Assembly (NCBI GenBank): GCA_023266095.1 | Contig: JAHFRV010000010.1 | Location: forward strand, 1 to 64,000 | Length of the DNA: 64,000 bases | Origin: Gammaproteobacteria bacterium | GTDB taxonomy: Bacteria; Pseudomonadota; Gammaproteobacteria; DRLM01 | Direction: 5' to 3' | Shown: positions 20,150-22,176 of the stretch, one piece after another | How the letters are laid out: each line of letters starts with the position of its first letter | Position numbering within the stretch: the first letter of the stretch is position 1 | Translations under genes and position numbers: made by a program | Notes under the pieces: model-generated | What the model saw: only the letters and a program-made list of their open reading frames with translations | Database searches by the model: none | Told to the model about the DNA's origin: nothing

Positions 20150-20458
20150 TCGAGAAATTTGCCGTGACTGGCTGGTGGATGTCGAGGTGATGGGAATGTG
20201 CAATGTGCAGGGAGTATCGCGCCGCTATTTTTGCCAAACACGGGATATATTGTTCGCGCGCAGCCGGAGGAATAAGTGAATTTCCCCTGGTCCGGCAACG
20301 TGCTTTCCACACGCTATGCACGCTATACGGTATAATCAGCGCCTATTCCCGACGATCGGCAACGGCCCGGTTTGTCTTTATGCGTGACGTGCTTATGGGC
20401 GCGGTAATCTACAGGGCTGCGCGGTGAGCCCTCGAGGTGTGAGATGAGAGAGGTACCC
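20150..20458. promoter_or_regulatory. djlA-sspA gap with a candidate -10 box
   Basis: The 309-base gap holds no recognisable gene. A perfect TATAAT stands at 20331-20336, about 120 bases before sspA, preceded by two near-copies of ACGCTATNC at 20311-20328. No convincing -35 box is placed at 16-18 bases. It is the best candidate for the sspA promoter. Confidence 0.4.
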
Positions 20459-21085
20459 ATGGTGATTTCGGCCAACAGAAGACCAGTCATGACATTGTAT
20501 TCCCGAGCCAATTGCCTGCAAAGCCATCGGGTGCGTTTGGTATTGGCGGAAAAAGGCATCAGCGTCGACATTCTCAATGTGAACGGCGATGTGTTGCCCG
20601 AGGATCTGAGCGATCTCAGCCCCTACGGCGCGGTGCCTACCCTGGTCGATCGCGATTTAGTGCTTTATCACGCGCAAATCATCATGGAGTATCTGGACGA
20701 ACGTTACCCGCATCCGCCTCTGCTGCCGGTGGACCCGGTGTCGCGAGCGCGTATCAAACTCTACGTGCATCGCATGGAAAAGGATTGGTACAGTCTGTTG
20801 CCCGATTTGACCGGCGAGGATGGCAAAGCCGCCGCCCAGGCCCGCAAAATCATCCGCGAAGGTCTCACGGTGATCGCGCCGGTTTTCGATCAAAAAACTT
20901 TTTTCATGAGCGAAGATCTCACGCTGGCCGATTGCACGCTCGGCCCCCTGTTGTGGCGTCTGCCGAATTTCGATATTGAATTACCCGCCCAAGCCAAAGC
21001 CTTGCAGAAATACAGTGAACGTTTATTCGCCCGCGCCGGTTTTAAACAAAGTCTCACTCCCATGGAAAAAGAGCTGCGCCGTTAA
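20459..21085 (+). CDS. sspA: stringent starvation protein A
   Basis: RNA-polymerase-associated GST-fold protein, 208 residues. It aligns through its length with E. coli SspA: ANRRPVMTLYS at the start, HRVRLVLAEKGI, the GAVPTLVDRDLVLYHAQIIM block, EYLDERYPHPPLLPVDP, then HRMEKDWYSLL in the helical domain. The ATG at 20459 matches the E. coli N-terminus; an in-frame ATG at 20444 would add five residues. It is normally followed directly by sspB; here a carbonic anhydrase fragment lies between. Confidence 0.95.
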   Translation: MVISANRRPVMTLYSRANCLQSHRVRLVLAEKGISVDILNVNGDVLPEDLSDLSPYGAVPTLVDRDLVLYHAQIIMEYLDERYPHPPLLPVDPVSRARIKLYVHRMEKDWYSLLPDLTGEDGKAAAQARKIIREGLTVIAPVFDQKTFFMSEDLTLADCTLGPLLWRLPNFDIELPAQAKALQKYSERLFARAGFKQSLTPMEKELRR

Positions 21086-21133
21086 CGTGGTTTCCCGGCA
21101 GCTGCGCCGGGCCAACAAAAATACAAAAAGGCT

Positions 21134-21589
21134 GTGCCGCTGAAAATACTCAAGAATGGTCACACTGTCCAGGTAGGGTTGGAAGGTGTGGGCGCCGTTA
21201 ATTTCCATGGTGATGAATACAAGCTGCCGCAGTTCCACTTCCATGCTCCCGGCGAACACGCGGTGCAGGGCAAGAGTTATGACAGGGAAGTGCACTTGGT
21301 CCATAAGCGCGATAAGAGTAAATTGGCGGTGCTTGGCGTGTTCATGAAGCCCGGCAAGCAAAACGCCGTAGCCGAAGCGGACGGCGAGGCGGAAGTGCAA
21401 GGCGCCAGCATCAACCCGCAGGATCTGTTGCTGTCGGGTAAGGATTCCAAGCATTCTATCGGCTCGCTCACCGCCCCGCCTCGTTTCGAAGGTGGGCGCC
21501 GGAACGTGTTGACCGATATCATCGAGGTGTCTCAGATGCAGAACGCCGCGTTCAAGGCTCTGTACGCAACGAATGCCCGCCCGGTGTAA
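21134..21589 (+). CDS. alpha-carbonic anhydrase fragment, truncated at both ends
   Basis: Open frame of 151 codons (GTG start) that is recognisably the central part of an alpha-class carbonic anhydrase. Kept in order are the proton-shuttle region NGHTVQV (His10, the His64 equivalent), Zn ligands in QFHFHAPGEH (His35, His37; Glu41), EVHLVH (Glu52, His54), VLGVF, GSLTAPP (Thr113), and NARPV at the end. Missing are the signal peptide and the first ~55 residues of the catalytic domain (GPxxW, QSPI region) and the last ~15-20 residues after NARPV. The same frame is open back to the sspA stop codon at 21083-21085, with family-like sequence from about 21115. Without a signal peptide it would be cytoplasmic. 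It could be a decaying pseudogene. Confidence 0.75.
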   Translation: MPLKILKNGHTVQVGLEGVGAVNFHGDEYKLPQFHFHAPGEHAVQGKSYDREVHLVHKRDKSKLAVLGVFMKPGKQNAVAEADGEAEVQGASINPQDLLLSGKDSKHSIGSLTAPPRFEGGRRNVLTDIIEVSQMQNAAFKALYATNARPV

Positions 21590-21651
21590 GACCAACATGA
21601 TCGTTTTTGTTGAAAGGCGGCAAGTAAACTTAATCGCGGTGACCGATATAA

Positions 21652-21682
21652 CCGCCGTGGGTCCCGCCCGCGGCGGCTTTTA
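21652..21682 (+). terminator. probable Rho-independent terminator before sspB
   Basis: CCGCCG at 21652-21657 pairs with CGGCGG at 21671-21676, followed by CTTTTATTTT. It lies 62 bases after the carbonic anhydrase fragment and 114 before sspB. Together with a TATACT box at 21719-21724, it suggests sspB is transcribed on its own here. Confidence 0.55.
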
Positions 21683-21795
21683 TTTTATGATCGCCCTGGA
21701 CCGGTTATCCGCGGTGCGTATACTAGATGAAGGGATGGGTAAGCTATAAACAGGGTAATGGAAACCGCAGTACAGGAGTACGGTCTTTGCAGAAA

Positions 21796-22176
21796 ATGAC
21801 CTCGAGCCGGCCTTATTTGCTCCGTGCTTTATATCAATGGATAGTCGATAACAACATGACGCCCTACATCGTGGTGGACGCGACGGCGGAAGGTATCATG
21901 GTGCCGACCCAGCATGTGCGGGACGGCCAGATCGTGCTCAATATCAGTCCGCGCGCGGTGAATCAGCTGCACCTCAATAATGACGAGGTGGGTTTCAATG
22001 CGCGCTTCGGCGGTGCGGCGATGCAGGTCAGCATTCCACCGCGGGCCGTGGTCGCCATCTACGCGCGGGAAAACGGCGAGGGCATGATGTTCCGCGACGA
22101 GGGCGGTGCGCCGCCCGATGGTCCGCACTCGCCGATCGACACGCCGGGCAAACCGAAATTGAAAGTGGTGAAGTAG
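21796..22176 (+). CDS. sspB: ClpXP adaptor SspB
   Basis: Specificity-enhancing factor that brings ssrA-tagged and other substrates to ClpXP, 126 residues. The body matches the family: SRPYLLRALYQWIVDNNMTP, IVVDATAEGIMVP, DGQIVLNISPRAV, the VGFNARFGG groove segment and VVAIYARENGEGMMF. A flexible linker ends in KPKLKVVK, the ClpX-binding tail. The ATG at 21796 fits the E. coli start; the nearest AGGAG (21774-21778) is better spaced for a TTG at 21787, so three extra residues are possible. Confidence 0.95.
   Translation: MTSSRPYLLRALYQWIVDNNMTPYIVVDATAEGIMVPTQHVRDGQIVLNISPRAVNQLHLNNDEVGFNARFGGAAMQVSIPPRAVVAIYARENGEGMMFRDEGGAPPDGPHSPIDTPGKPKLKVVK

Follow-up and report, generated by a model that had tools for sequence, protein, structure and literature searches.

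A probable pseudogene derived from a secreted alpha carbonic anhydrase in the sspA–sspB interval of a gammaproteobacterial genome

We analysed a 64,000-nucleotide stretch of a gammaproteobacterial genome (the window), in which the frame resembling a carbonic anhydrase (CA) between sspA and sspB is very probably an ordinary, fairly young pseudogene of a secreted alpha-CA. The frame is homologous to alpha-CAs, is matched by an intact ortholog at the equivalent site of a congener, carries disabling lesions and has evolved under relaxed constraint. The window genome (G000; 3.33 Mb, 96% complete) is the one genome that represents its species in all comparisons, and the features of the locus are collected in Table 1.

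Table 1. Features of the sspA–sspB locus in the window, with coordinates in the window and the basis of each assignment.
Feature	Coordinates	Strand	Basis
sspA (stringent starvation protein A), intact	20444..21085	+	GST_N/GST_C Pfam matches; 97% identity to G002 ortholog
Junction of ~350-bp deletion, A-rich run, where codon 88 of the ancestral CA gene now abuts the sspA 3' spacer	21114..21128	.	Comparison with G002
Alpha-CA pseudogene, ~codons 87–248 of the G002 CA minus 8 codons	21122..21589	+	Homology, alignment, selection
24-bp in-frame internal deletion, approximate position	21380..21393	.	Alignment with G002
Remains of the C-terminal CA tail, no longer translated, with a 1-bp deletion (G002 tail: QDQHDRFLLKNGK)	21590..21632	+	Alignment with G002
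Hairpin like an intrinsic terminator with T-rich tail, ancestral	21652..21686	+	Sequence scan; kept in G001, G002, G003
Promoter-like site (TATACT −10) ahead of sspB, ancestral	21697..21724	+	Scan; GTATACTA kept in G001, G002, G003
sspB, intact	21796..22176	+	Pfam SspB 3.9e-36

Behind the sspA stop codon (TAA, 21083–21085), the reading frame remains open until a second TAA at 21587–21589, and from about position 21122 it encodes alpha-CA sequence in the frame of sspA. That an alpha-CA follows the sspA stop in frame and ends at NARPV had been proposed in a sequence-only reading of this DNA, and database matches agree: Pfam Carb_anhydrase (PF00194) matches the remnant with an E value of 1.4e-15 (bit score 58, cut-off 27), and its best PDB match is at 5e-27. 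Alignment likewise confirmed the proposal that every catalytic position is kept, namely the three zinc-binding histidines (equivalents of His94, His96 and His119) and the equivalents of His64, Glu106 and Thr199. The domain is nonetheless incomplete, with the N-terminal region, the disulfide cysteines and the conserved Trp after TTPPC all missing. The window genome yielded no alpha-CA match besides the remnant, and searches of genome contigs with short peptide patterns found no close relatives of the remnant.

An intact counterpart is present in the congener G002, a MAG from Hainich groundwater, whose sspA and sspB are separated by a complete alpha-CA gene of 261 codons with a Shine-Dalgarno site (GAGGGG) a few bases upstream of the ATG, a signal peptide, HWGY where the mature domain begins, the cysteine pair, TTPPCSEGVRW and, at its end, the tail QDQHDRFLLKNGK; the same contig is publicly available as CAKKSB010000132.1, part of a Gammaproteobacteria MAG sampled at Hainich. 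Relative to G002, DNA alignment reveals that the window copy has lost ~350 bp comprising the ribosome site, the ATG, the signal peptide for export and the first ~87 codons, as well as 24 bp in frame (eight codons, in the VFDNMPKE region), and has undergone a CAA to TAA nonsense change directly after NARPV. The large deletion at the 5' end and the nonsense change at NARPV account for the two truncated ends noted in the sequence-only reading, which correctly recognized the loss of the signal peptide and N terminus but put it at the first ~55 residues, where about 87 codons are missing. Tail DNA (GACCAACATGATCGTTTTTGTTGAA) is still recognizable downstream of the stop, with a 1-bp deletion. The missense changes include the conversion of PPCSEGVRW to PPRFEGGRR, by which an invariant Cys and an invariant Trp are gone; the sequence-only reading had noticed neither this loss nor the eight-codon deletion. 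Among columns conserved in at least nine of ten outgroups (positions are counted along the G002 locus, in its open frame), substitutions found only in the window copy fall, besides the deletions, at seven of them: S187G, P255L, Y260S, T269A, C272R, V276G and W278R.

The frame that the remnant shares with sspA had also suggested an SspA–CA fusion protein made by rare read-through of the sspA TAA. This idea gained no support, and we give it a close to negligible chance: a shared frame is a roughly one-in-three outcome of a deletion, the G002 CA has its own start and is preceded, behind the sspA stop, by a spacer in which the sspA frame is interrupted by several more stops, and constraint on the remnant is not detectable.

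Analysis of selection pointed to relaxed constraint on the window copy. Pairwise dN/dS between G000 and G002 was 0.36–0.43 for the CA, compared with 0.05–0.07 for sspA and 0.08–0.14 for the TerB/DnaJ gene; the value for sspB was left unused because a run of N breaks its frame in G002. In a codon model that included four outgroup CAs, w was higher on the G000 branch than on the rest (LRT 38.9, P = 4e-10). Because the unconstrained branch model placed all synonymous change on one branch, we used a clock-constrained version in which synonymous time was set equal on the sister branches G000 and G002. This yielded w = 0.69 on the G000 branch (profile ~0.4–1.2), from which w = 1 is not rejected (P = 0.16), and w = 0.014 on the G002 branch, the two differing at P = 5e-6. 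A value near 1 had been named beforehand as the mark of plain decay, and the G000 branch is compatible with it. The estimate below 1 could reflect a weak constraint that persists or a decay that set in only after part of the branch had elapsed.

Counting against a pseudogene are this best estimate of w, the 151-codon frame that is still open and the retention of all six catalytic residues. At the relevant divergence, however, 10–28% of neutral simulations from the G002 sequence left the frame free of stops, and the chance survival of all six residues had P = 0.14; both are therefore within chance expectation and provide no evidence for function. The open frame with all metal ligands and the Thr199 and Glu106 equivalents, together with w below 1, would also suit a minimal, cytoplasmic, disulfide-free and N-terminally truncated CA-like protein, translated from a GTG at 21134 and kept for a new role (perhaps non-catalytic, in zinc or carbonate binding). 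We consider such a protein very improbable, since w = 1 is not rejected, residues and frame are kept no better than by chance, the invariant Trp is lost along with the cysteine pair and the N-terminal third, the sole ribosome site is an AAGG two bases upstream of the GTG, and the copy in G003, a relative from a second genus, has decayed in parallel. Of the origins offered in the sequence-only reading, a decaying gene is the one that stands, on the G002 ortholog, the lesions, dN/dS and the decay in G003, whereas the minimal repurposed enzyme does not. A recent chimera was rejected too, because the gene appears to have been at this site from before the divergence of the genera; the window genome also has no second alpha-CA copy that could have been its source.

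Comparison of the sspA–sspB interval across genomes places this pseudogene in a longer history. Outside the family the pair is contiguous, sspB lying within about 190 bp of sspA in 24 of 25 loci, and among members of the class beyond the family that have both a CA and an sspA match (44 genomes), none carries the CA near sspA. Examining the same interval in relatives within the family, as had been advised, revealed, besides the intact G002 gene, an alpha-CA remnant with an internal TAG in G003, located right behind sspA and ahead of the same terminator. G005 has an intact alpha-CA directly upstream of sspB (L048 477-2781, in the order TerB/DnaJ gene, alpha-CA, sspB), with no sspA recognizable in this locus or in the rest of its genome (83% complete). 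G001 and G004 lack an alpha-CA at the site and have an alpha/beta-hydrolase-like gene after sspA instead.

In G001 (L046 1920-2903), G003 (L045 1177-215) and G004 (L047 1760-1867, where the contig stops inside the gene), the stretch from the sspA terminator/promoter to sspB encodes a conserved protein of ~328 residues; its resemblance to alpha/beta hydrolases was judged by eye only, from GFSN and AHSMGN motifs. The gene is absent from the window and from G002, where extra unrelated DNA lies upstream of sspB.

The terminator hairpin and the GTATACTA −10 element are found behind sspA or the CA in G000, G001, G002 and G003. Since relatives share them whether or not they carry the CA, both elements belong to the ancestral sspA/sspB layout and neither is new, although the sequence-only reading had supposed the −10 box to be. 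An assembly or binning artefact that fused a CA fragment to sspA might be entertained for a genome in 110 contigs, but independent genomes show the same order with the flanking spacer, terminator and −10, making it extremely improbable.

The simplest reading of these distributions is one ancestral gain of an alpha-CA at the site followed by repeated loss, and the gene appears to have occupied this interval from a time before the genera separated. All five genomes G000 to G004 have a beta-CA, and its retention could have made the alpha enzyme dispensable and its loss plausible. At the level of titles and abstracts, we found nothing on point in the literature that links carbonic anhydrase with sspA–sspB or that concerns bacterial alpha-CA pseudogenes.

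For the pseudogene, we propose that the alpha-CA gene stood complete between sspA and sspB in the family ancestor, equipped with a signal peptide and a ribosome site of its own, and that in the window lineage a deletion of ~350 bp took the translation start, the signal peptide and the N-terminal third. The 24-bp deletion, the nonsense codon, the 1-bp indel and the loss of conserved structural residues would have come later, in an order that we infer, with purifying selection no longer detectable. The remnant may share a transcript with sspA up to their common terminator; it probably yields no active enzyme, and we infer that both product and activity are absent. The finding matters little beyond annotation, in which automatic pipelines would label the open frame 'carbonic anhydrase' though it is a pseudogene. 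The locus offers a small, clean case in which an alpha-CA has been lost repeatedly at one site in a gammaproteobacterial family while the beta-CA was retained.

Compared with bacterial alpha-CAs (PF00194; PDB 4x5s, 4g7a and 4c3t), the remnant is clearly homologous in its central and C-terminal part, with the catalytic positions kept, but the signal peptide and the N-terminal third are missing from it, as are eight residues of the interior, the cysteine pair, the invariant Trp and the tail at the C terminus. The G003 remnant (contig C82) is like that in the window in being a decayed alpha-CA directly after sspA with the same terminator downstream, and differs in being shorter, with ~98 codons left, and in carrying a TAG. 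Contig C5 of G003 codes for a further alpha-CA, which is intact (L008 717-2016) and whose open frame of 433 codons includes a long Ala/Pro/Thr-rich N-terminal extension of low complexity. The G002 CA is a direct ortholog at the same place, with 72–74% protein identity and about 80% DNA identity through the CA tail and terminator; unlike the remnant, it is intact and strongly constrained.
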